Source: Heterotrichella gracilis
Taxonomy: Eukaryota; Sar; Xanthophyceae; Tribonematales; Xanthonemataceae
Direction: 5' to 3'
DNA length: 64,000 nt
Assembly (NCBI GenBank): GCA_032358255.1
Contig: JAULBX010003332.1
Location: 248,001-312,000, forward strand
Part shown: positions 1 to 55,088 of the stretch, one piece after another
How positions within the stretch are numbered: position 1 is the first letter of the stretch
How the letters are laid out: each line of letters starts with the position of its first letter
Translations under genes and position numbers: made by a program
The notes under the pieces: generated by a model
The model's database searches: none
What the model saw: the letters and a program-made list of their open reading frames with translations, nothing else
Told to the model about the DNA's origin: nothing

Positions 1-3000
1 GGCGGCAGATGATGTGTGCATGCGCGTGGTAGCATGGTTTGTCAGTGTGTAGATGTAAATTACAAAGACTGGTGCACACCGTGTCAACCCTTAAAATGCC
101 CTGAATACCCCACTGCATGGCCCTCTCACCACCACCATCCACCACTGCTACCCCACACCCCACACAACAGCCACCACCCACCCACCACCACCGCCACCAC
201 CCACCCACCCACCTCCGCCTCCTCGTGGCACACCCCGCACACCCCCGGCTCCCCCTTCTCCACCTCCGCCCCCTTGCTCCCCTGGCTGGCGCTGTGCACC
301 ACCAGGTACGGGTGGTCCACTGCCTGGCGCAGGCGGATGAGCAGGTCGAAAATGTGTGCGTAGTTGTTCACTACGGTGCCCGACTGCACATAGGCGCCAA
401 ACTGGGCCTGGCTCTGCAGGTGGGCAGGGGAGGAAAATACAGTTAGTGGAGAAGTGTACTTTGGCTTGTCGATCACCGTGCTAAGGGGCCACGCTTCTAT
501 ATGTGTGCACACTTGTCAATTTGACCAATTGACAAGTGTGCACACATATAGAAGCGTGGCCCAATTCCATCGGGGCGTCCTCATTGAGGCTTCAATAGGG
601 TCTAAAGCCCATATAAACCTGTCCTTGGGCACCAATGTAAAGGCTTCCTATTCCTGGTTTCCAGACTCCACTGGGATTTCTCTAAGATTTCCCTAGGGTT
701 TCCATTAGGGTTGCCACAATCCCCCCTTCCATTACGTGCGTGTACAGCGCCTCATAAAAGTACTAGGGTTTCCATTAGGGTTCATAAAAAGTCCTACTCC
801 CCCCTTACCTGCGTGTACAGCGCCTCGTAGAAGTCGGCCTCCCTCTCGTCAAACCTGTCCTTGCGCAGCGTGACGGTGCGCGGGGGCAGTGCCAGCACAT
901 CCGCACACCCCACCTTGGTGCGCCTGAGCAGTATGCGCGGCAGGATCTCGTGCTTAAGAATGGCCATGGCCACCCTGCCCTTGCCCTGGTAGCCATATGC
1001 CTTGATTGGGTTGGCCACGTAGCGGTTCCACCAGCAGTAGTGGGACATGGGGGAGTGCCTGGGGGGTGGGGGAAAGGGGGTGAGTGAGGGGGTGGCTGCA
1101 AAACCAGCAGTAGTGAGACATGGAAGAGTGCCTGGAGGAGCGCTTGGGGGGGAAGGGGGGGATGCGGCGAGGCTGCAACGCGGGAGCTCACATCCCCAGA
1201 TCTTCTTTAAAGTGCAATTTCTACTAGATTTACGTAGGGCTAGCAATTGGAAGCAATTTGTGGGGGTAACGTAGTGCACGGCGTGTGGTCATTGCTGGTG
1301 CATACGTCCCACACCAAAAGGAACGTATGCACTGGTACTGGTTAAAGTTCCCACCCACCAGGAGGCATTGGCTGTTCCAGACTGATACCATTACCAGAGC
1401 CACTGGCACTGTTAGGGTTCAAGGAGCAGCAAGTTTAGGGTTTAGGGTTTTCCACCCACCCGCACAGGTCGCACGCCCTGTGGCTGTTCCTGAATGGGTA
1501 GTCCAGGCACTCGCACCCGCACTTGCACAGGTAGTGGCTGTAGGGGTGGATGCGCAGGAAGCGGACAAGCGAGTACAGCTCGCCCACGCGGTTCTGCAGC
1601 GGGGTGCCTGACAGCGCCCAGCGGTAGCGCGCAGCCAGCGCAAACACCGCCTTGGCGGTTGAGCACCGCCTGTCCTTGATGGAGTGGGCCTCGTCCAGGA
1701 CCACGCGCCGCCAGCGCACCTGGCGGGAAGGGGATAGGGTTTGGATAGGTTTGCATGGGGTTTGCGAATGAGTTGGAAGCCAGTGGAAACCTGGACACTA
1801 CGTGGCCTTGAGGTTTGGTGAGGGTGGCATTAGTCATTGGACAGGTTACTTATAGGTCCTGATGGGTTGCCTATCGACAACCCACCCACCTGATGCAATA
1901 TGGAAACTTCATTTCCATCCCCTAATCCACAAGCTTCACTTCTCACACCTCCATACCCATCCACCCCCTACCTGGTGCAGGATGGACACCGGCTCCTTCC
2001 CCTCCACCACCTTCGCCCCCTTGGCAGCCGCAGCAATCATGCGCGCGGCGTCGGCCGCAGCCGCATCCTCATAGTCACCCACTGAGGCGCCGCCACGTGG
2101 CGCATGGCCATCGCTGATGTCATCATCGCTGCCCGCTGACTCGTCGCTGAGGTCAGCACTGGAAGGAGACAGAGGTTGGGGGTGAGGCAAGGTGGGCATT
2201 GGGTGGGGGCAGTGCACTGGGTTGATCAATGTTTGCAGGCATGGGAGAGGGCACAATTGCATGCTGCAGTGCCACATCGACTCCACAAGGAGGAAGTGTC
2301 GCAAAATGGACATAATGGCCAATTGTTTTGCCAACAACCCTACCCTGTCTGATAACGTGCCTGGACTGTAGTGTGTATGTGGCAAATTTCATAGAAATAT
2401 GAATCCTGGAGTGCAGAACCATCATCCAAACTTTCCCCATGATACGCATTTCTGTCCCTCCCTTGCCATCACCCACCTGTCAGCATCATAATCCGAGTCA
2501 TCGCTGCCGTCGCTCCCTCCCCGGAGCTTCCTCTTGCCCACCGATGATTTCCCCCCCTTGCTCCCACTCAGCCCCCCACCACTCTTGCCACCCCCCTTGC
2601 TGCCATTTGGCCCCACACTGCCCTTGCCCCCCTTGCTGCCAGAGGGTGCCCTCCCCTGCTTCCTCGATTTCTTCAAGGCCTTGCCCTCCTTGGACCCTGA
2701 GGCACCCGCCTTCCCCTTCCCCTTGGCACTCTTCCCCTTCTTCCCCTTGACAGCGGCCTTGGGATCATCGTTGTTTGAGTCATCGCCCTCAGATGCAATG
2801 TAATCGGAATCATCCGATTCATCTTCATCGGCAGCTGCACAATTTAGGCAGCATTGTCAGCAACATCACAAGGGAAATGCCTGGCAACCATTGGTACATG
2901 ACATGTTAACGGAACTAGCGTATCGTTACCATGTAGCAACTTGGCCCCATCCCCCACCCATGCGCTAAGCAGCCACAGGGCACACAATGCAACTAGCATT

Positions 3001-26169: not shown

Positions 26170-29100
26170 TCAATGAGGATGACCATGGTGCCTGCGAGGT
26201 ATTAATTTGCTGGGCAGCAGGTGTTGTCTGGTTGGTTGGTGGACTGGGACATCATTGGCTGTGACTGGTGCAGGATTTGCTGCAACAGTGGAACTAAGAA
26301 GGGAGGGACGGCGTGTTTCAATAAATGAAGGACCATCGCGATTGGGACGCAGTGTCTGGATGATCTCAGTCTGCTGAGCAGCGGGTGTGGCTGGCAAGAG
26401 GGTTGAGGCCTGATTGGTCGCAATTAGTGCTGGCGCTGGTGTCTGCAAGATCTCAGTCTGCTGAGCAGCGGGTGTGGCTGGCAAGAGGGTTGAGGCCCGA
26501 TTGGCCGCAGTCAATGCTGGCGCTGGTGCCATCACTGCCTCAGGCGGGTTGTCGGGGTGATCAGGATGCCTCTCCACCCACTCCCGACAAGCAACATGCA
26601 GTGGATATACCGGGGTCAGCCAGGTAGAGTTTACTCGCTGGCGCGTCACTGGGCAAGTGGCTCTGTTCACAGCAAAATGCTGCTTGATGGCTGTGGACTC
26701 GTATATCATGCCTGACTGGATCACAACGGGGTCCCACATAATACACAAGGTGAGGGGGCATTTGTATTCTTCGGGTGCAGGTGGCTGGTCATGTTCCACA
26801 GTTGTTGGAGCCTGCATCATTAATGATAACAAGAAGTCATATGTGGGCGGAATTGACTTGTGTTTGGATATTGTGGATGAATGGGATTTCAGCCTAATTT
26901 GAGTGTCAAGGGTGACCATTGGGTCACATTTGAAAACCACGGAGTACCAAGAAGCAATGATTCTTCTGAAACAGCATGAATCAAGCTCCAGGAACACACC
27001 GAGTTGACATGCGTAAATACAAGCAAGGGCACAGCCTTTGTGCCATATGCTTATCCACAAACAAGGCATGTATTTCAGTTGGAACTGAGTAAGTGTAGCA
27101 CAACTTTATGCTAGAAACAATGGCATCACATGGATGCCTGTTGCGGCATACCATAAACTTTAAATGATCCAGTTGCTGGCTGATTCATTGCTCAATGAAT
27201 CCAAGGATAACCCAAGAGAATAGAGACAAAACTCAAAGTGCAAATGTCTTGCACACTGTACTGTAGCTACAAATGAGTGTTAACTCCACCGCCATGCCAA
27301 GGCTGCTCTCACCCTAAGGCCTTGTCTACATACCTGTGGAGCCTGTAACCCAGCATGCAGTTGCACTGTTTGACGCAGCACCGCACTCAGTTCTTGCAAT
27401 ACCTGTATATGGGATGGGTGGCGCAAGCTGTCAGGTGGGAATGAGAATAATGTTTGTTTATTCCAAATTGATACAGAAACCCCAGGCACTGGTGCAGTCA
27501 ATGGCACTTGTGTGCACACATGGTGACACCACTTATGGCATTTCATTTCTCCACCCCCCTGAAGCCCGGTAACTGGGTGCCACGTCAGCAGTGACGTGGC
27601 ACTTTTGGACCAATACATGCCCAAGACATGCGTTATAGCAACCAAGGTTGGGCAAGCACTTTGAGAGAGAAAAAAGTATATAGTTGAATGCAACAGCACA
27701 TCTTAACTCACTCTGTGCAGAAATTTATCGATATTTCATTTTTATGGCAACTTTCATGGGGAAATGAAATGCCAGGCGGCCTGGGAAGTGCCTATTATGC
27801 GCCATGCTCAGCTATTGATATCAGTAAATGGGACTAATTTATGTGCGTAGGAGAAGGAGTGTGAATGCAGTGGAGCAGACACAGTGTTTGCCCCATGATG
27901 ACAGTGGTTTGGTCCCCACCTGGCCCATAGTGGGGCGGTGCAGCGCGTCTTGATGCCAGCAGCCCTGGATGAGATGGCGCAAGGAGGGGACAGCCTCCAA
28001 CATTGGTATGCCATTTAGCGGGGGCCGCCTCTACGCAAGACAAACGAGCACCATTGCACAAGCATGTATCAGCATAATACTGGACAGTTCGAACTCATTG
28101 TGTAGATTGACTGTCTCAAGTTATGGCTACCCTACTTTACACGTACATCACAAGTCCCGGGCCTATACTTGTGGATGCCACCAAATACCTATCATGGATG
28201 CGTGGCAATGGCAATTTATTTTAACATCTGGTGGCACCCTGGGCTGTTGTTGCATGCTTGCCCACCTGCTGCCTCATCTCCTCTTCTATTGCGCGAGAGT
28301 TCAGTGGCTGAGGGTATGCTGGGCCCCACCGTGCCACCTCCGATAACACAATTCCAAAGGAGTAGACGTCGCAGGCAGTGGTGGGGTTGCACGATGCAGA
28401 GCTCATGAGCTGCAGAAAGCAAATGAAAGGACAATTTTTTAAACAGTTGTGGTAATGGAGCGCTGTTGTAGACCTTGAGCCCAACCTGCATGTGTTCAGG
28501 CCACCAAATTTGAGAATGCACTTTTAAAGGATCTTGGGTAGATAGCTTTAATAGCTTGCCAAGTTAATTAGGGACCTTGGAGTGAGACAAGTAAGTCACC
28601 CACATTCACACACATCCACACCAGTACCAAGGTGCACTACAGGGTACTCTGCATTCCATTGCCCTAGGTTAGTATACTTTGGGTAGAGTAATCACAAGGA
28701 CTACATGAAGGCCTTGTTTAAAACCCTTGAAGAGCCGGTCATGGGCCAAGATCAACAATGCAGCGATGGGAGAACAATCCACCTTGCTACCCACCTCTGG
28801 CACCATGTAGCCATTCGTGCCAAGCACACCATTGACGTTGCTGAAGCGGGTGTGTATTGCCTTGCGCTCCTTTGACGTGCCAAAATCACTGATCTTTGCC
28901 ACCATGCTGCAGAGCAAGAGAATGGTGAGACACCATTGTTTGGCGACAACTACCCAGACCCCCACAACTGTACGAAACTTTTGTTTGAAACATAGGACAC
29001 CTTGTCATGATCAGCAATGTCACACTTGGAAACTGCCTGTGCTTACAAAATTCCTAATTCGTAATTGGCAATATTGATACTTGTGTGGCATACACGACAT

Positions 29101-32100
29101 TCCAGTCCATTCTTATCATTAATGCAAGTTTTTCAATAGCATATTGTAGCCACCATAAATACTCTGGGGTTTGAGGAGTGAAAAATATGATACAACTGAC
29201 TTGGATAAGAATTACAATAATAGTATTCTTTAACAACCAAATGTCAATGACATTTTTTTCTACCTAGAATGTTTGCAACTAGTAATTAGGCAAAAGGAGG
29301 ATGCACCAATAGTCTCAAAAGACAATTTGCATTGTGCCAAGAGTGAGAGGGGTTGGCTGGGGTGGTAAAGATAGCCCTCCCCATAGGTGTGGGCGTATGC
29401 TATGCCTTTTGGCAGGGAAAGATGGCGGGAGTGGGGATTGGTGCTGGGGAGGATATAAGTTCGGGCAGGGGAAGATAGCGGGGGATTTGTACTGTGAAGG
29501 ACGGTGGGGGGAACACTTGGAAAGTTTCGGGCTTCGGGTTTTGGGTTGAATAAAACAACAGATTAGTGATGAAAACCCTGCCGCATAGGCAACTCCTCGG
29601 TGCCATCAGCCCAGGTGTTGCCATCACCAAGGAGTAGCCTATGCGGCAGGGTTTTCATCATATTCTGTTATTTTATTCTGTTATTGCACCAAGAAGAGAT
29701 ATCAGCACAGCGGCTATCGCACCTATCCACTGTGTAAACTGAATCTGCGCACCTGCTGCCTGTCTTGCAGATGATGATGTTTTCCGGCTTGAGGTCGCCA
29801 TGCAGAACATTGGGAGTGCGGGAGTGAAGGTAGTCCAGGCCGCACGCTATGTCCTGTGCCAGTCGGAGACGCTGCAATACATGCTCATGGGTCAATGCAT
29901 CTTCACCAGGCTGCCACAGTTTTGAAAGGCAGCCATACTCCCCTAGCTCCATCACCAGGCAGCGTTCATCAACCACTCCAGGCGCCTCCGGCGGCTTTAT
30001 GTGGCCCCCATACAGTCGGATGATGTTGGGGTGCTCTAGCTTGAGGTGCAGTTCTGCCTCGCGTTCAAGAGATTTTTGCACAAACGACCGCGCACCGCCC
30101 TGCAAGGTGCAGCCATGTTCGTTTCTATTATTTATGCGTACAGATTGTACAAGCGTGTATTGTGATGATCGAGAATCCATTCAGTAAACTTGGCACCCCT
30201 TGCCCTCAGTGCATGCATGCGCCTGCATACAGTACATGTGCGCTGAACGTACAGCATTTATTGTACCACAATCAAAGCAGTGATACACAGATACGCCTAC
30301 TACAGGCAGACTACGTGTGCTTATGTATAAACATATATAAATTCATGACTCAGAGGCAGAACGGGCAGAGGGTGCCATTACTCCAATTGCAACCTCAGTG
30401 AGACGGCATGGCACGGCGTTTGGTACATCATTGAAGCCTAAAACCTAAGACTGTACCTGAAAGCTTGCCTTGACGGCTACTGGCCTCCCATTCCACTCAC
30501 TGGGGTATACGCAGCCAAACGCCCCCTCCCCTATCATGTCATCGTGACGTAGACGCAATTCGGTTGACTTAATTGACACCCATTTCCGGGAAGTGGGAGC
30601 CTGCACATGCAGAAAGTTTGCCAATGGCATAGGAAGGTGTCAATGAATACAATAAAATATACCACTATGCCAATATAGCACTACTTGCAGTTAGCCTTGG
30701 CCCATAAATACATAACCATGTTATACATACCCAAACCATAGCCTTCCAATTGGGTACGTGTGCTTGGGAGGTATGCTGCATGCGCCACCTGCAGCTCCGG
30801 TATGTGTGCATTATAATGCATTGTAATGCACCTCGATGCACCTTGTGCAGCAAAGTTTAGATGCGTTGCCAAGGCATGGACCCTGCTGGCTCACCATGTG
30901 AGTCATCTCAGAAAGCATGCGCATGCGGGCCATCTCAGAAAGCAGATGACCAATCTCTGGTGCAGCCTGTTGCAGCTGCTCACTGCGCATCCCCTGACCC
31001 TCCAGCAATGCATCTCCCGTCAACAGCTGGCACAAGGCCTGGCGGTCCAATTCAATATCCTCATCCTGCATGCAAGTGGGCAAGTAAACTAAGCCAAGTG
31101 AAGGTGGTCCTGAGCATTACCCTTTTGCAGCATGCATTGCTGCAATGGATGTTGGTGGGCATGGAGTGTTCTCGAAAAAATGCTATTGCTAACATGCCCG
31201 CACAAACATGCGCGCACAATGTTTATATATTGTCCAGGCAGCCTGCATGCCAGTAAAATTTTCAAAAAACTATGACGATTCAAGACTTCTTTTTTTGGCA
31301 TTTGCAATAGTCCTGTGAAAGCCCAGTTGTTTATAGTAATGCACGGCACACAAGGTTATTGGCACCACAATAAAGTACACCGCCTCCACACAATGACATA
31401 CCGTGACTCGTTGGCAGTGCAGTGTGACTGACAGGGTGAGCTGGCTGCAAATGTGCTCCATGTCTGCCATGGGGGAGTTTATCTCATCACGCATGTTCCC
31501 GCTGTTGATGACGACGCGCATGAACCTGAGCAGGCCGCTGGCAGTGCACCGCTGATACACCCAGAGAGCCTGGTTTAGCACCAACTCCAGCTCTGACACC
31601 ACTCTTTGGTGGCATGTAACCTGGGCATGCGGGGATTGGGTCTCTGATTGGGCATGCACGCAAGTGACCCAGTGAAAAATTCCATATATGCCATGTCTGA
31701 CACAACTGGGGTGCATTGATAGTCGTGAAGATGTTCACAGGATCCATGCGCATCCAGATTGCGCCCCTATGTACCAACCATTGTACGGCACATGATCATG
31801 CACACCAACAAAAATAAGAGCATCTCACGTGGGGCATGTCTCACGTGGGGCATGCCTGCAACTGCCACGTGATAACGTAATGCATGAGGCGCCCTAGGTG
31901 CTTGAAGCAGCGCATGTATCATGGAATCTTCCCCTTGCAGCTTGGAAACACTTCTCCGCCATGCACCATGCATGTGGTACCCACCTGGCTGGCATGCTGT
32001 ATCTGCGTGTCCACCTCACACACACACCGGTGCAGGCGGCCGCACATGTTCCTGTTGGCCTCTACTTTGCCAAAAGCCTCCTTGCAAGAAACAATCACCC

Positions 32101-38055: not shown

Positions 38056-40290
38056 ATGCAAACCATGGCTAGCAGCAGCAGTCTTGGCACCCAACACCGA
38101 CCTGCGTGCCACGACTTTGTATCCAACAAGTGCGCCCCAAGGTCGAGAGTATTTCAAAAATCGAGGCACGCACCTATTCAGGCCTGCAGCCCTACACAGC
38201 ACCAACGGGATAGCGAAGGTAAGGTGTTGGGTCAGCATATGCATGCATATGGCTAGGCCAGCTAGGCCAGTGCTCCTTCAACAAAGCAAACCCTGCGTTT
38301 TGAGATTGTTGATACGTTTGTCAACTGTCCACCGTCCTTGTGACACACTTACCTCCCTGACCTGCAGCACCACTAGTTACTGAGTTGCACGGTCCTTTGC
38401 ATAGTGTTGCTGCCTAGGTACGCTACATAAGAGTGCATGCATGTATGAGGTTGCATCCACTAGTCCTGAACGCCCTAGCCAGCGTAGGCAATATACCACG
38501 GATGTAACCCTGCATGGTACAACAACCCTGCATGGTACAACAATGGTACAAGCAACAACCCTGCTTGATGTTGTACCTGTACAGCACTGGCGAGGATATG
38601 CACCCTGCCCACCATGCTTGCCTGTGTGCTGTGCTAGGCGAGTCAGCGTGTGCCTCTCGGCGGTCAGTGCTTGGCCTGGCCCTGCTGTCCTCCGCTGCCC
38701 TGCTGCTGCCCAGCGCACCGGCCCATGCACAGCTTGCGTACCCTGAGGGGGAGGTGCAGGCAGCCATACAGAACACGCTCAAGAAGAATGTGCAAAAAGC
38801 AAAGGTGTGGACAGTGCACACTCGCACAAGCACTTGCACTTGTCGACGTCCATGCTGAGGCTTGGAACAGCCAGGAGGAGCCTGTGGTCTTGTCCTGACT
38901 GCCGTGGGGCTTCTACCAACATGAAGTCTTCCTATTGTGTAGTGGGCGCCAAGGGTTTCAGACCACCGCCGCAAGGGGTACCATCCTGCCATCCCTGCAC
39001 TTAAAACCCGAAGTGACACCATCCATGCATGCCGCCCAATATGCTTCCATGTGCTTGCAGGCGCCAGTCCTGGTTCGCCTGGTGTTCCACGACGCTGGCA
39101 CCTTCTCCCTGACAGACGGGCAAGGGGGAGCCAACGCATCGGTGAGGTTTGAGCTGGATCGGCCCGAGAACAAGGGGCTGCGGCGAGGGTGGAACGTGAT
39201 ACAGCAGGCAATGGATGACCTGGTGGGCACCGCAGCGGAGGGGGTGGTGTCATATGCGGACATGGTGGCGCTGGCGGGGGCATATTGTGTGGGGTTGTGC
39301 GGGGGGCCACAAATACCTATCGCCATAGGTGGGTGGAGGGGTGTGGGGGAGTCAGTGGGGTTGGGGACCAGGCATGCAATGCTATCGGGGTGGATGCATG
39401 CGGGGTGGTCACGGGTGGCATGCCATGCGCCAATTGCACACATCGACCCTAAGATGCAGTCCATCTTGCATTGCCATTTGCTATGCTCACCGCCGGAACA
39501 TGCCCCCATCAAATGATCCCCTGCACCCCATGGCCATGCGCCGCTGAGTGTACATAATTTAACCGGGTAATGCATGCCCAAGAATGCTAATCTGGTCACA
39601 GTTTGAACGCATGTGCCCGCTTGCGTGCGCCCCCGCAGGTCGCCCTGACGCCCCCAGTCCCGACCCCCTTGACCGACTACCCTCTGAGACCCTTGCGCCA
39701 GCCGCCATCCTGCAGGCGTTTGCTGACAAGAGCCTAGGGCTGAGGGAGACGATAGCGCTGTCGGGAGCACACACGGTGGGTGGGCGGGGTTGATGGGTGG
39801 GGTGGGGGTTGAATGGCGGGGCCAGCTGAACGTTGCTGCACAGGCCACAGCACCCACTGCGGTGACTGTGGCGCGGATGGCGTCCATCCATTGCCTTGAC
39901 AGGTTGCCTCACATGTATGCGCGTATCAGCATGCTCGACATCAAGCGCCCTGCGCGTTACACATTCAGGGAAAGTTGCCCAGCAACTCCTGCACCCAAAC
40001 CCTGCACCCTAAAGCCCCCTCTTCCCCTTTTACCCCAGCTGGGCAGCAAGGGCTTTGGCGACCCTCTCACCTTTGACAACAACTACTACCGCATACTCAT
40101 CCAGCGCACGTGGGAGCAGCCGGCCAACCGCGACATGATCACAATGATCGGCTTGCCGTCCGATCGCATGCTGCCCGATGACCCGCAGTGCCTGGAGGTG
40201 ATCAAGGAATACGCTGGCAGCCAGGAGCTGTTTTTCAGGGAGTTTGGGTTGGCGTTTCAGAAGATGACGGTGCTAGGGGTAGCGGTGTGA
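38056..40290 (+). CDS. TL29: Thylakoid-lumen ascorbate-peroxidase-like protein (TL29/APX4 type)
   Basis: Five exons give 328 residues: 38056-38218, 38638-38804, 39061-39328, 39639-39775, 40039-40290. Exon 1 is a Ser-rich, basic chloroplast transit peptide (a second Met at 38065 is also possible). Exon 2 adds a lumen signal with twin arginines (SRRSVLGLAL, Arg62-Arg63) and a cleavage site near PAHA-Q (85/86). The class I peroxidase fold shows the distal RLVFHDAGTF (His120; the usual Trp is Phe), RPENKGLRRG, CGGPQIPIAIGRPD, the proximal ALSGAHT (His244), GSKGFGDP and GLPSDRMLPDDPQCL. The last two blocks are diagnostic of plant TL29, a photosystem II-associated lumen protein reported to lack peroxidase activity. 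Both histidines being present does not prove heme binding. Confidence 0.9.
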
Positions 40291-47133: not shown

Positions 47134-50100
47134 CTACGCCTTTGCTACCATGCCAGCCTTTGCCTGCTGAGCTACCGTCAGCATATTGTGCGCCTTGCGC
47201 GCTCGGTGCATGGGGGCATTCACCAGCGTTAGCCGGTTCATCTCCTCCTACAAGGGGGGTATGATATTGACCATCGGTGGGTGCACTGCAGTGACTATGT
47301 AGTGGCTTGCATTTTGCAACTACACTGCCTTTCCATACAACAAAGAGGAGGCAAACAGAAAGACAGCATGACATTAATGCACGAGGCCTAAAATGCAGTC
47401 AAGCATGCAACTGTTTACAATGGCAACGTTTCAATACCAGCAGAAATGCCACATACGGCATTTAATTGCATATAATGGAAGCTGGAAACCACCCGATGGC
47501 ATGAGACATGCGGCAGACAGACGCAAATGATGGATCTGCATGTGTACAATGGTATTACCTGAATCATATACTCTGTGAGCCTCATGATCTCAGCACAGCT
47601 TGGCCGCATGTGTGGATCCTGGTGCCAGCACTTCTGGATCAGGCGCTTGAGCTGGTCAGGGCAGTCATCAGCCATACGGGGGCGCTCCAAGTTGATTGCC
47701 ACGCGCATGATGATCTGCAACAATGCAAACACAAATGATGATTATGATGAACACAACAAAGGGCGAGCAGGATTAATCATGCTGATCTGCTACAAAGATG
47801 CCGTTCAGGACGCCCTATCATGATCACCACTGCGCAATGAAGTCAGTCTTCTATTGAAGCTAAAGGAATGGTCAGGCCCTGGAAAAGAAATATTAGATTG
47901 ATATCTAATATTCTCGGAGAAGAATTTAGATTATTTCTAAATATTCCAGCCACACTGTAGAATACTGGGCGCCTCTGCATTGTTCCCCGTCTAGCACCTT
48001 GTCCTGACTGTATTGATACGAACTTGGTCAACCAGTTATGCATGGGAATGTGCTATATAAATAGTACCTGAAAGAAGTGTGGGCAGTCTTTCCACGGCTG
48101 TCTCCGTGTGAAGCACTCATTGAAGATGCAGCCAAGCGCATACACATCGACCCTGCAACCCATACAACCATGTCAGAGAGAACCAAGCCAGCTGGATTGT
48201 TGAACCTGGATTACAAGCCATTGCCACCGTAACATGTATCATCGCCCCATACAGTGGCCAAAACAGGACAATAATAGATGGCAAACCCAATCCTTGCGCC
48301 AGGTGAATCAGTGCAACGCCAGGTGGATCAGCGCGCACTTACTTCTCATCCACGTGGATCCCATTGAACTGCTCCGGCGCCATGTACTGAGGGGTGCCGT
48401 TGTCATTGGTCACGGACAGGTACGTCTTGGCGGGGTCCTACAAAGGAGGTGGAAACGGGCTCAGTGCTTATAACCTGACGGCAGCCATAATAAAGCATAA
48501 AGCAACCAATCTGACATCAACAGTGCACACAAAACACTGTTGATGTCAGATCGGTTGCCAATTATATTGTATGTGCAGCAAATATAAATGCAATATATTA
48601 GATGCGATTGCGTCTATGAGTGTAGTACTATGAGAACGTAGTTGGTTTCTTGCCAGTTACCTTCACCCTGGAGATGCCAAAGTCAGCCAGCTTTGCCCTG
48701 CCAGTGACGTCCAGCAGGATGTTTTGCGGCTTGAGGTCTCGATGCACCACACTGGGGTGCAGATACGCCAGCGCTGCGGCAATGTCATGAGCAATCTGCA
48801 CCCCACCACAGGTTATCAACCAATGTAAAGCAAACATGAGAAATCAAATTAAGATAGTATGATCCGTCACGTGCTTTGTTGATAATCACAGCCCATTCTT
48901 GGTGATGGAGAATGACAGCATAAGAACAAAATACAGCACACATGATGCTTGGCAGAGCTTCCAACCAACTCTGCATACCCTCCATTGCATATGCACATCT
49001 GCACAGTAACTGCAGCAATGCTTTACCCTGTACCTGCAGTATCTCCAGGTACGTCATCCGCCTCTTCTTGTTGTCATAGATGCGCTGGTACAGGTTCCCC
49101 CCCGCCACCAGTTCCATGATGAGGCAGCAATTCTCGCGGTCATGCACGCACGCGCCGTACACCTTGACCAGGCGCTCCATCTGGAACTTGGAGGACAGGT
49201 TGATCTCACGCAGCAGCGCCTCGTACATGCGGTGCCCAGCCTCGTTGTTCTGGCTGATGTACTGGGGCAGCTTCTGCAGCAGGGCATACAGCACGCAGGT
49301 CACCATCAGTGATGCAACAGAGGATAGGGATTCATATCTGAGGGTCATGATTAGGCGGTATGCTAGCCTGTGCAGTAAACATCCATCAACAGGGGAGTTA
49401 CACCAATACTTGCCATGTGCTAGGATGTTTTAGGCTGATGCGCAGCACACATGAACCATGCTGGTATATCTGGAGAGTCCACACAATGCGCATGGTGACT
49501 GGCGCGGTCACAGGTATGCATTTCCAGTGTACTGTTCACTGGTAATCCCTACCCACCTTGACAGCCACCACCATTTCTCTCCATTGACACTCATAAACGC
49601 TGCCAAAGCCTCCAGTTCCCTGCGCAGGTGGATGATGCGCATTTTGACACAGATGTTTGTTTTATGATACCTTTAAACAGCCACTTTGCCTGCCAACTCA
49701 ATTCAACAGACAATTATGCATGTACTTAACGCCACATTACCAAAGTATGCGAGACTGGCTCCAAAAGGCTATACTCGTGCATGCATAACAATTTGAAAAA
49801 ATGGGCACAACTGCAGGTTATGGGACAAACACGTACCAAGCAGCGGCCAAGGAATGGCTCCACCTCTATCTTGTAGTCAACGTTGAGGTCAATGTCCTGG
49901 GCTGGCGGGGAGTTGGGCAGGACTGGCGGCGGCATGATGGTGAAGCTGGGAGCAAAACTGGGCGTGGGGCTCAGCCTGGCCCTCCCACTGATCCGCTCAT
50001 ACATGGGCGGCACATAGTAGTCCAGCCCTGGCTGCACAACAATGCCATCCCAAGACTGGCACCTACGCATCTGTGATGGGTCCTGCCATGGCGCCAGCCC

Positions 50101-53100
50101 CCGCATCTCACGGGGGCGGGGCAGGTTGCTGAGCAGCGGGAGCTCCAGGTGCATGGTACCAGCCTTGTGGTGCATCAGCTGATGAGCCTGGCCACAAAAA
50201 AAGGAGCATTAACAGGCAAAATTGTAAGCAGCAAGTTGCAAGGTTGTAAGCAGCAATATGCGAGGTTGTAAGCAGCCGTTTGAAACCGCACCAGTCGGGA
50301 GTATTGATGGAAGACAAAGGTATGCAGAACAAGGTTGACCCAAACAGTAGGTTTTGCAAAACGTGTGTTTCAGAAAAGCAACGGATTGGGCACAGCGCAA
50401 TGCAAGCACAGCCACATGGCCACACTGGCACGCACACACAGGGCAAACAGGGGTTATGCGTTAAATTACCAAATGATGATGGAATATGTATTCTACATTC
50501 AGGGCAAAAATATATTTCTGGATTGTGCTGCGCCGCCATCCGTGTGAGGGGGGTTATGCTATTTTTTTCATTACCTGTGCATATCGCTCCGCAGATATGG
50601 CATCTGGCCCCGTGGCATTGAATCCCCAGTCCCCTAGTGTCAGTCCCTGCCTGGAGCTTGGCACAGTGTCCTGCTGTTCTGACAGGGCTGAGCTGTCGCT
50701 TTGTCCAGGCTGGGAGAATAGGGCAGCCTGCAGCGCCTGGAATGACAGCGACCCAGACTTGACTGATCCTGACCTGAGGGACCCGGTCTCATTTTGGTAG
50801 GAGGAGTAAAAAGACACATCCGACTGTGTGTCAGTCAGTGGCTTCTTCCGGCTGTGCGCATGGCTGAGTGGCTGTTTGTCCTCAGCAAAGGGACTCTGCA
50901 CAATGATTGCGCGCAGCTCCAGGTCTGCCTCCTGTGGATGGTGGCTGTTCAGTACTGATAGGGTAGGGAGTTGCCGCGACCCTCCACTGCTGCCAAACTG
51001 GTCCCGCAGAGACAGCTCATCATAGGAACCGGACCCACCCCGGCCATTGGGCAAGAGCAGCGCATTTGAGGATGCGCCCAGCAGCATGGGCCTGCGCATT
51101 GCTCCGGAGGCATCACTCATTGGGGTTGAGCCAGAGGATTGCTCTACGCCTGGGTGCTTGTAGGCGCCATTGGCTTGCACCATGGCGTACTTCTCGATCA
51201 TGGCGTGGGAGCGGCGCTTGCGCCTCCGAAGCATGAACAGCCCAATGCCAACCAGACCCAGGACAACAACGAGCGCACCACAAACAGCTGCATGGCAAAG
51301 AACCGCATGTCAGCGCGAGTACAAAATGAAATTGGATGATAGCTGGCCACTGCAGTGATCTTTTGCTTGGACAACGAGTCTTGGCAACTGGAACTTGTGA
51401 GGCGCAGCACTGACAGGCACACAGTTCTGCAACAGCTTCGAGACATGTACTGCTCTTTTGCCACTAGTGCATGTGCAGTGCAGGCCCGCAACAGCCGTAG
51501 CTGGTGACACGCACCTCCTACTACTAGACCCAGCCCACTCTTCTTCGTGGGTGGTGGTGGCGATTGGCTGCTGCTTGTGATGTTGGTGCTGTTGGCAGGA
51601 GGACTCACAGGGCTTGGAGGACTGGCATCTACGGCCGGCAATGGTGGCACTGTCAGTGGCAAATGGCGACTACTTGAAACTAATCTTCAAGTATACTAGT
51701 ACATGTATCACATGACTTGGCCATGCAGGATACAAAGCAGTCAGATACCTTACATTGTCACCGATGCCCCGCCAAGTGGCAGTTTGCTCATGACAACGTC
51801 AGCCATTACACACGCTGGACATAAACATCATGCAGAGGAGTCATGCTTCCACACTACAGACATTTTGTATCCTACCTATGACGGTGCCAGCTTGGGATGC
51901 GTTGCATGCCGGGCCTGTGCACTGGCTGTTGGCCACCAGAGATGAGGGCAGGAGGTTGGCAGGGGGGGGTGGGGAGGGGGCACTGGCGGGTGCTGCAGCT
52001 GGCGCAGTTTGTGGACCAATGATGTCGGTGACATTGAAGCTGCCCACTGGCGCCGGGGCGCCACTGGTTGCCATGCGTAGCAGGTAGTTGGTGTAGGACT
52101 CCCCTGGCAGCTGCCCAGGGTTAGATGGCACTACCGCGGGAACCCTTGGAGGGTTTGCTGGTATAACTTGCGTCACGGGATCTGGGCTGGAGCAGCAGTA
52201 TGTGAGGGACATGCCACACACCTGCACACGCAGCAAACCGCGAGCATATTCGTTGGCAATGAAAAGTAGAAGGTGTGCAACAAGGCTGAACGGGATAGAT
52301 GCTTTATGATAAACCTTATTACAATATCCGCATTATGCCTGCATATTGGTCTAGAATACTGCCACATCAGTGTACAACTGATGGGCTCACCAGTGGGAGC
52401 AAAACAATCCCACAAATATACAACACACTGGAAGGCCAATTTGATCATTAAGGAAGCACACGTATTATCTTGCAGAAAACACTCACTTGCAAATTGCTCA
52501 CTCCCTATCAATGCTTCCCAAGTAATACTGTCAGGGAGGTTGGGATTCTGCGTTTCACGCCTTCTGCAGCACATACCTGATCTGCGCTCCCTGTCAATGC
52601 TTCACAAGTAATGCCATCAGGGAGGTTGGGATTCTGCGTTTCTGGCACCGTAACGTTGACAGTCACCTGCACAATAACCAATTTTCCCAGTGTCAATGAC
52701 GTCACATCACGTAAGTTATTGGCATAGTGATGCGCTGCACAAGTTGACAGCGCCAAAATGATAAAGAGGCATGTTATTTTATGCACAATTTGCTAAACTG
52801 CTCACTGCCTGTACCTGCAGGCCTATCCTATTTTAGCAACCACCTAGTACATGAAACAGCTATTGGGTACGCAGCCTGCAGAGGTAGCAGCTACTGCACA
52901 GTGCCTGCAACTCAGTCATGTACAGGTGCACTCACCACGGCATCCGGAGACGGCCGGCCACCCCACACAAGGTTGCCATTCACATATCCTGGGATCTTAG
53001 GATTTGGAAGAGCAACCTTTGGGCGGGCCCCAGAAGACGAGCTGTTGAGATTTGAGGCGTACTGTGTTGGCAGGTAGGAGTAGTCCTCGGTAGCATTGAT

Positions 53101-55088
53101 GACATCCAGGAACTGGCGTGTTTGGATGGTGAGGACCATGTCAAACACCTCAGTGCCATTTGTCACAAAGAAGGAGGGCAGCGCTGACGAGTCTCCACTG
53201 GGCAGCAGGTACCACAGGTCCTGGCTGATGGTCACATTTAGCACAAAGCGTGCTCCATAAATATCTGAGAGGCCCCGTGTGATGTTCAGGTCAATGAAAT
53301 CGCACCCTGCAACAATGGGCAAACTATCATGATCATTGCCGATCCCATTGCAATATTGGAGTAACTACACGACATCGCATGCATTGCATCAAGTATTCTT
53401 TTTTACTGAAAAACATATTTACGAGATACCTATTACATCAAAATATCTCAGTAAATAGAATTGTCAATGCCAGGTGCCAAATACATATGGCGTCCAAACC
53501 CCCATTTCTCAGGATCACCATTTGACACATTGATTGTAGGAGCTGCACATGACAACCCAGCTGCAGCAGCTACGGCATGCCACAAGCTGGCAGAAATGCA
53601 AATTGCATGCTTAAACGTTCACCTGTCACATTGGGGTCCAAGGAGGTCGCCTGGTCACAGCCAATGAAGAACAGCTGCTGTGGAGCCATCCGCAAGTCAT
53701 CAGCTGTCAAATGATCCGGGCCGTTCAGCCAATACTGAAACGACAAGGAGCTCAACGGCAGCGTCTCATTGCCGTTGATGTTGCGCAACCTGAAACAGAT
53801 GTTGGAAGAACACATAGGTGACCTCACTATTTGGGTAATCAGAACTGGCGCTGATGCATTCAATTTGACGCAATGGGTCATTCTCCTGCGTACCAATGCA
53901 ATTCAAACAGAGTATTGCAGTAGTTGACAACTTGAATATCACTTGCTATGTACCATGCATTCTGCCAGCTTGGAAACCCTCAGGAATAAATCTTCCTATG
54001 TGACAGTTGTGACGTAGTTTAACATTGCTCTTCATTTTGAGAGCACATGGTAAAGATTAACTCTGTATTCCACTAGGTTAGCTACATCTGATAATTAAGC
54101 ACAATTGTTCACAAAATCATTGAAACCCTGTCATGGGGTCCAGTGTGTGCCCCACCTTGCAAAGAATTGCGTGAATGAGCTTGGTAGCCTCCCAATGGGA
54201 GAGTCTGCTGCGTACTCCAAGGATGTGTACTCCACCTGGATGCTTGTGGGTTTGCTGAAAACTGCAGGGGCCGCAGCAATCTGCTGCGTAGTGGTTGCTG
54301 TTGAACTCCTATTGTCCAGCTCCCTGGCGCAGGCAAGGTTATTGAAAACCATGTTCTGAGGAGGGGCTATTCTGTAGGAGTTGTTGCCAACCTGGGACAG
54401 TGCCTTTGTCCCCACAAACTTCCACAGCACGTCCTTGGTGGGCCCAATACTTGCATTTGCCAGTCGGTCCTCGACAATGACCACCGGCCCACCCACTTCC
54501 ACAGCGTGCAGATCAGTGTCCAAGATATCTGTATCCTTGTTGATGTATTCTCCAGCAGCAAAGGACCAGCCCATCCTCCAGGTCGTGATGTTGAACTGCA
54601 TCAACAACAATGCCACCTCTCAGACTCAGCAATGCACTGTAACAGCAGTGTCGGACACCCTCAAGGCACAGCAAAACAAGTATACAAGAGCCATTAAACG
54701 GACCCATACCCACATTCAGTGTGACAGTCATTGCTTTGCAAGTCCAGAGCAGGTTGTGAATGCATGTGGGTTTGTGAATACGCACCTCAGCATGGTTGAT
54801 AACGGTCACTGCACCAACAAAGACCGGCACATCGTTGTCTTCTGTTTTCCCCAATGAGACATCATACTTTGCAGTGACGGAGCAGGTGTCGGCCTGTGCC
54901 AGGTTGATTGTGACAAGCAAGTACAGAAGAACCACAACTAAGCGCCCGTTGGTGTGGCGCACTTGCCTCACACCATTGCTGGGACTGCTGCTGGACGGAC
55001 CACCTCTGCCTGCTCTGCTGCTGCTGCCATTCATCCATAATCTGCTGTCACAATCTTCTGGCACCGCCTTTAATGAAGGCTTGGCCAT
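47134..55088 (-). CDS. Receptor-like kinase with carbohydrate-binding-like ectodomain
   Basis: Sixteen exons, all in frame, give 1260 residues: 55088-54786, 54595-54156, 53789-53623, 53306-52936, 52666-52577, 52221-51876, 51628-51515, 51287-50575, 50187-49837, 49619-49557, 49273-49034, 48795-48661, 48437-48343, 48152-48068, 47714-47559, 47247-47134. A hydrophobic leader ([16 protein letters not shown], about 50-65) precedes a CBM2/COBRA-like stretch (about 68-170). A CBM3-like domain follows (about 205-395): [10 protein letters not shown], then [11 protein letters not shown], then [10 protein letters not shown], matching the YWFT/NVT/DYSY skeleton of cellulose-binding family 3. Many N-glycosylation sequons and a Pro/Ser-rich stalk lead to one membrane helix (about 604-631) stopped by RRRKRR. 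A Ser-rich juxtamembrane region precedes the kinase (about 958-1223): [44 protein letters not shown]. All catalytic residues are present. Cell-wall polysaccharide sensing is an inference. Confidence 0.85.
48502..48558. repeat. 24-bp inverted repeat with 9-nt loop, in a receptor-kinase intron
   Basis: Arms 48502-48525 and 48535-48558 pair with one mismatch. The hairpin lies between receptor-kinase exons 48795-48661 and 48437-48343. Confidence 0.85.
52501..52642. repeat. 56-bp direct repeat copying part of a receptor-kinase exon
   Basis: 52587-52642 (within exon 52577-52666) and 52501-52556 (in the next intron) differ at 5 of 56 positions. The downstream copy lacks matching splice borders in frame, so it looks like a partial exon duplication rather than an alternative exon. 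Confidence 0.85.

Follow-up and report, generated by a model that had tools for sequence, protein, structure and literature searches.

A 64,000-nucleotide stretch of Heterotrichella gracilis DNA (GenBank assembly GCA_032358255.1, contig JAULBX010003332.1, positions 248,001 to 312,000; hereafter the window) carries on its minus strand a gene predicted to encode a membrane receptor kinase, the ectodomain of which contains a module related to the family 3 cellulose-binding modules (CBM3). The best explanation for this gene, which we hold with as much confidence as doubt, is that it encodes a wall or polysaccharide (beta-glucan) sensor, i.e. a receptor whose architecture is read from the sequence and whose ligand and activation are predicted. 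Within a hand-made gene model, a signal sequence, an ectodomain, one membrane helix and a complete kinase follow one another in a single reading frame. A first-pass annotation of the window had placed a receptor kinase at 47134-55088. These limits are exact, with an ATG at 55088 and a stop codon that ends at 47134, and the predicted order of ectodomain, stalk, one membrane helix and complete RD kinase is upheld in one reading frame.

The gene model was built by hand from the DNA sequence and comprises 16 exons encoding 1267 amino acids (aa). Exons 1-8 lie at 55088-54786, 54595-54156, 53789-53623, 53306-52936, 52666-52577, 52221-51876, 51649-51515 and 51287-50575, and exons 9-16 at 50187-49837, 49619-49557, 49273-49034, 48795-48661, 48437-48343, 48152-48068, 47714-47559 and 47247-47134, all on the minus strand. 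Each of the 15 introns is bounded by GT-AG, their length ranges from 190 to 387 nt, and their GC content is 44.8% vs 57.3% in exons. Once joined, the coding sequence is a single open frame of 1267 codons, with 47 and 41 stops in the other two frames; the mean in 200 shuffled coding sequences is 45. With its 15 introns, the gene is not bacterial; the assembly probably contains some bacterial contigs. One contig in particular (C442, locus L087) carries a glycoside hydrolase family 9 (GH9) gene amid long open frames that look bacterial by eye (ABC transporter ATPase, AsmA-like). It is very unlikely indeed that the model fuses two adjacent genes, one for a secreted CBM-like wall protein and another for a separate kinase. 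Hand-made and derived from sequence alone, the model could in principle contain such a fusion, but the longest gap between exons is 387 nt and the frame is kept at every junction. Moreover, the membrane helix exists only after splicing, since it is assembled across intron 7 from a stalk exon (exon 7) and exon 8, which argues against two separate genes. As a separate observation, 56 nt of exon 5 (52587-52642) are partially duplicated as a 91% identical copy (52501-52556) found 86 nt further along the gene, within intron 5 and outside the gene model.

The second of the two ectodomain modules, module B (residues ∼216-423, exons 2-4; 52948..54253, minus strand), is related to CBM3 by sequence. The motifs of the CBM3 skeleton named in the first-pass annotation (YWL, NVT with CD, and DYSYLP) are all present, and the resemblance goes beyond chance in both profile and hhalign tests. 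The conserved blocks are YWL (267), CDQA (292), NVTGCD (301), DYSYLP (378) and YVNGNLVWG (411), the last of which had not been named before and matches the end of CBM3 (YLNGVLVWG in CipA). For the profile tests, we used a full-length CBM3 profile consisting of CipA CBM3a and 43 bacterial CBM3 domains, which came from prokaryote contigs scanned with CipA CBM3a. Module B scored 16.0 bits, a value equalled by none of 20,000 shuffles (14,273 reported, best 10.7), and the whole ectodomain scored 13.7 bits, again equalled by 0/20,000 (12,919 reported, best 11.2). When 821 open frames with a minimum length of 60 aa, originating from the window and loci L001-L008, were ranked with this profile (507 reported), exon 4 came first (11.9) and exon 3 second (7.9), the next score being 5.4. 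With hhalign, module B matched CBM3 with a probability of 95.1% and a score of 53.2 over 134 columns that span the junction between exons 3 and 4, whereas the controls gave a maximum of 22.0 (300 shuffles), 11.2 (module A, the first ectodomain module) and 13.5 (kinase). Cross-controls, module A vs CBM3 (-1.3 bits) and module B vs CBM2 (-0.1 bits), were both ordinary for shuffles, and a kinase used as a control resembled neither family. We also split the CBM3 profile by identity to CipA into two sub-profiles, which we take to correspond to the CBM3a/b and CBM3c subtypes. The hhalign score of module B was 54.6 with the CBM3a/b-type sub-profile (35 sequences) and 25.6 with the CBM3c-type sub-profile (9 sequences), and a CBM3c origin was rejected on these values.

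Several findings weigh against this assignment. Module B has no match in Pfam or NCBIfam, with no CBM_3 at E values up to 10, and it is ∼50 residues longer than CipA CBM3a. The HMMER score is carried by two short end blocks, one of 1.9 bits at profile positions 14-41 and another of 8.4 bits at 128-146, and chiefly by the last one. Indeed, much of it rests on YVNGNLVWG, because the CBM3 score of the ectodomain drops to 3.9 when the last block is masked (masking the first leaves 9.9). Exon 4 folded alone, without relatives, gave an uninformative predicted local distance difference test (pLDDT) value of 33.6. Module B has no direct sequence match in the PDB, and although a PDB profile search with one alignment (A1) finds CBM3 chains, A1 itself includes three bacterial CBM3 rows, and these chains therefore say nothing on the algal row. 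One could thus argue that the likeness to CBM3 arose by chance and that the ectodomain is a beta-rich algal domain with no relation to CBM3, an argument that draws on the missing curated family and PDB match, on an identity of 25-29% to three CBM3 sequences (in one small alignment) and on the weight of the last block in the HMMER score. We find this very unlikely in view of the 20,000 profile shuffles, none of which equalled module B, the wide gap between its hhalign score and that of the best of 300 shuffles, the top two ranks of exons 4 and 3 among 821 frames, and the occurrence of the blocks in CBM3 order.

In CipA CBM3a, we take the cellulose-binding strip to consist of D56, H57, Y67, R112 and W118. 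The full strip is not found in module B, where one of the five positions is conserved, another two have been lost and the remaining two depend on the alignment. D56 is conserved as D293 in every alignment. Two positions count against polysaccharide binding: H57 is replaced by Gln 294 in every alignment, and W118 is kept in none, being replaced by Thr in three and by Leu in another. Of the two undecided positions, Y67 falls in a gap in three alignments and on Phe 307 in another, and R112 corresponds to Phe in three and to Arg in another. Of the 35 sequences of the CBM3a/b type, 33 have Trp or His at position 57, and 32 have Trp at position 118. Because the strip is only partly kept, module B is filed as a CBM3 relative and not as a proven cellulose-binding member. 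These substitutions, together with expanded loops and a profile match that is strongest in the framework blocks, would also fit the main alternative, in which the CBM3- and CBM2-like modules, as relic folds, have a protein or peptide as their present ligand or serve to dimerise the receptor, so that the gene encodes a receptor kinase but no polysaccharide sensor. This is a substantial possibility, if short of probable. On the other hand, D56 is kept throughout, carbohydrate-binding modules are able to shift their binding face, and both the stalk and the wall genes of the genome suit a wall-facing receptor. The role of wall or polysaccharide sensor, which had been proposed in the first-pass annotation, is plausible considering the GH9 cellulases and the probable synthase-GH9 fusion of the genome (see below), with two of the five strip positions lost and binding putative.

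Module A (residues ∼67-195, exons 1-2; 54314..54890, minus strand) is weakly CBM2-like, on evidence that is suggestive. CBM_2 is its sole Pfam match at E values up to 10, below the cut-off (15.3 bits for a cut-off of 24; E 0.026; profile positions 15-46). Within the 404-residue ectodomain the E value becomes 0.11, and the match is unreported when the whole protein is the query. Using a small CBM2 profile composed of eight fetched domains and a typed Cex sequence, module A scored 12.7 bits, which was reached by 5 of 20,000 shuffles (19,572 reported, best 18.2). The hhalign score against CBM2 was 24.0, the best of 300 shuffles reaching 22.9. The likeness to COBRA is marginal. With hand-typed Arabidopsis COBRA sequence, the score of the N-terminal part against module A was reached by 4/1000 shuffles and that of the C-terminal part by 45/1000, and no Pfam COBRA match was found in the protein at E values up to 10. 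Taken together, the interpretation with which this analysis began stands for the architecture and the CBM3 relationship, is only suggestive for the CBM2 half of what had been called a CBM2/COBRA-like stretch, and fails for COBRA in Pfam.

The remainder of the protein outside the kinase is consistent with a surface receptor. A long N-terminal stretch (residues 1-48) precedes the signal sequence, the core of which (residues ∼49-66; 54891..54944, minus strand) lies at a hydropathy peak (residues 50-68) and is presumably cut after AQA, as judged by a cleavage-site rule. Downstream of module B, composition and motifs delineate a region (residues ∼428-611, exons 5-7; 51535..52666, minus strand) that consists of a short stretch with four cysteines (residues 428-467) followed by a Pro/Ser/Ala-rich stalk (residues ∼470-611). 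The stalk contains two SPPPP motifs, proline accounts for 19% of residues 482-632, and no Pfam family was matched in this region. The predicted transmembrane helix (51232..51533, minus strand), which spans residues ∼612-636 and is interrupted by intron 7 in the gene, is the single segment above the hydropathy threshold after the signal sequence, with a value of 2.82 in the best window (614-632), and is followed by RRRKRR at 638. There are 17 N-glycosylation sequons in residues 1-640, 16 of which follow the signal sequence. A predicted cytosolic Ser-rich linker (residues ∼637-968; 49849..51231, minus strand), in which no Pfam family was matched, connects the helix to the kinase.

The protein kinase domain is of RD type (residues 969-1223; 47580..49848, minus strand), as assessed by Pfam, PDB ranking and motifs. 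Pkinase matches residues 970-1223 with an E value of 6.7e-52, the active-site Lys is found in VAVKK, and the kinase motifs, amounting to 24 residues in addition to APE, are present. Among the best 60 of 2291 PDB rows, the top chains are the TKL kinases CTR1 (133.1 bits, E 1e-37) and TAK1 (127.6 bits, E 5e-36), and the one plant receptor-type kinase that we recognised, 6cth, scores 96.7 bits. Since CTR1 and TAK1 rank above 6cth, the kinase looks TKL rather than RLK/Pelle, judging by this ranking. The earlier description of a complete RD kinase is thus borne out, but its setting beside land-plant wall receptors is weakened, as the nearest PDB kinases are not plant receptor kinases, and the comparison with those receptors may therefore be one of analogy. 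In an exon-by-exon search, the closest other kinase match in the same genome shares 40% identity across residues 115-268 of the query. Upstream of the other kinase loci no candidate membrane helices were found, but the flanks (∼1.5 kb) are too short to tell. The window also contains a second kinase gene (∼28200-30180, minus strand), with HGDLKPEN and a Pkinase match on one exon (E 1e-14).

We searched the genome (68.5 Mb, 903 contigs) for relatives and for genes related to the wall. No other copies of the ectodomain were found, all five matches being its own exons, and there were no relatives in viral contigs. Exon-by-exon family searches returned no other CBM3, CBM2 or COBRA domain in the genome; these searches missed the gene's own module too, and absence is therefore not demonstrated. 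Control genomes likewise gave no signal in the COBRA search. GH9 is represented by 31 matches on seven contigs, one of which is the probably bacterial C442. In six GH9 loci with flanks of ∼1.5 kb, no CBM3-like domain scored above 3.4 bits, and the best CBM2-profile score was 6.7 bits (locus L091, E 0.56). Contig C4 (∼125449-130000, minus strand; loci L086 and L092) carries a cellulose-synthase-like (GT2) gene with a Cellulose_synt score of 22.1 bits, or 25.2 with its neighbours (cut-off 24.7), and with the motifs FDADQ, TED and QRSRW, which we take to be cellulose-synthase-like. As assessed by coordinate comparison, the C-terminal membrane exon of this gene runs stop-free into a GH9 N terminus, within a 305-aa open frame (L092, 341-1258). 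The locus is a probable cellulose-synthase-like-GH9 fusion. Such synthase-GH9 fusions are reported in the Coccomyxa genome paper, which predicts cellulose in the wall of Coccomyxa C-169 from its cellulose synthase and cellulase domains and names C-169, Chlorella variabilis and Emiliania huxleyi as the only algae in which synthase domains were detected (PMC3446292). The genome also contains 35 light-harvesting protein matches, with one locus nearest CP26. Two further exons were noted in the window: a peroxidase exon (38899-39513, plus strand) nearest the thylakoid lumenal 29 kDa protein and ascorbate peroxidases, and a U-box protein exon (26173-27105, minus strand; E 2.3e-15). On their own, the light-harvesting matches and the peroxidase exon would most likely point to a green-lineage phototroph, and the probable synthase-GH9 fusion would make a trebouxiophyte likely.

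In the mechanism that we propose for a wall or polysaccharide sensor, the gene product is an algal type I membrane receptor kinase, the ectodomain of which would reach into the wall on its Pro/Ser-rich stalk. There, it may bind beta-glucan or another structured polysaccharide, whether of the alga's own wall, of a partner's or of an intruder's. Binding, loss of binding or tension would alter receptor clustering and turn the kinase on, and the likeness to CTR1 and TAK1 suggests that the kinase may work at the mitogen-activated protein (MAP)-kinase-kinase-kinase level. A broader idea, that chlorophyte algae evolved wall sensing independently by combining bacterial-type CBM2 and CBM3 modules with a TKL and not an RLK/Pelle kinase, is tentative and in our view rather unlikely; if true, it would define a receptor class absent from the known land-plant repertoire and, to our knowledge, a rare or even the first case of the CBM3 fold being put to use in a eukaryote.

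Wall monitoring by walled algae seems to be little known. No receptor kinase carrying CBM3 or CBM2 in its ectodomain was named in the titles and abstract openings of open-licence PMC papers, which for some topics comprised the best matches only. In the accessible text of the Trebouxia A48 paper (PMC12712428), the term "cellulose-binding" is used a single time, of two secreted proteins (IPR000254), and the word "kinase" does not occur. A word search of a review on the extracellular matrix of green algae gave 0 occurrences of "receptor" and "sensor" (PMC10762512). A receptor kinase that bears a binding module of the cellulase type would be a direct candidate for algal wall-integrity or partner sensing, and a test case for the independent invention of wall receptors beyond the land-plant receptor-kinase family.

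How does this receptor compare with known systems? The Arabidopsis receptor kinase CORK1/IGP1 has a kinase of the RLK/Pelle family. CORK1/IGP1 is reported to be an LRR-malectin receptor kinase that senses cello-oligomers (PMC10139151). Both proteins are thus membrane receptor kinases, with cello-oligomer binding by the ectodomain reported for CORK1 and putative here, but the CORK1 ectodomain is composed of LRR and malectin domains. Chlorophyte receptor-like kinases (RLKs) are likewise receptor kinases of green algae; a review tabulates 1-4 of them for each chlorophyte genome considered, with C-lectin, L-lectin and RLCK as the Chlamydomonas types (PMC10868138). Unlike in our protein, the Chlamydomonas ectodomains are lectin-type or none, and no CBM type appears in the consulted part of this review; the ectodomains of two Coccomyxa RLKs fall outside the comparison. 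The CBM3a/b modules found in scaffoldins and cellulases of clostridia, such as CipA CBM3a (PDB 1nbc), share with module B the order of framework blocks (N..LS.L.F.YW/Y, CD.A, NVTG, DYSY and Y.NG.LVWG), whereas module B belongs to a eukaryotic membrane receptor, has the additional length described above and does not keep H57 and W118. Land-plant COBRA and COBRA-like proteins, of which module A weakly resembles an N-terminal stretch, are glycosylphosphatidylinositol-anchored, whereas our protein is a membrane kinase that lacks a Pfam COBRA match. Finally, the kinase domain finds its best PDB matches in CTR1 and TAK1, but both are kinases without a membrane-spanning ectodomain, which the receptor described here is predicted to possess.

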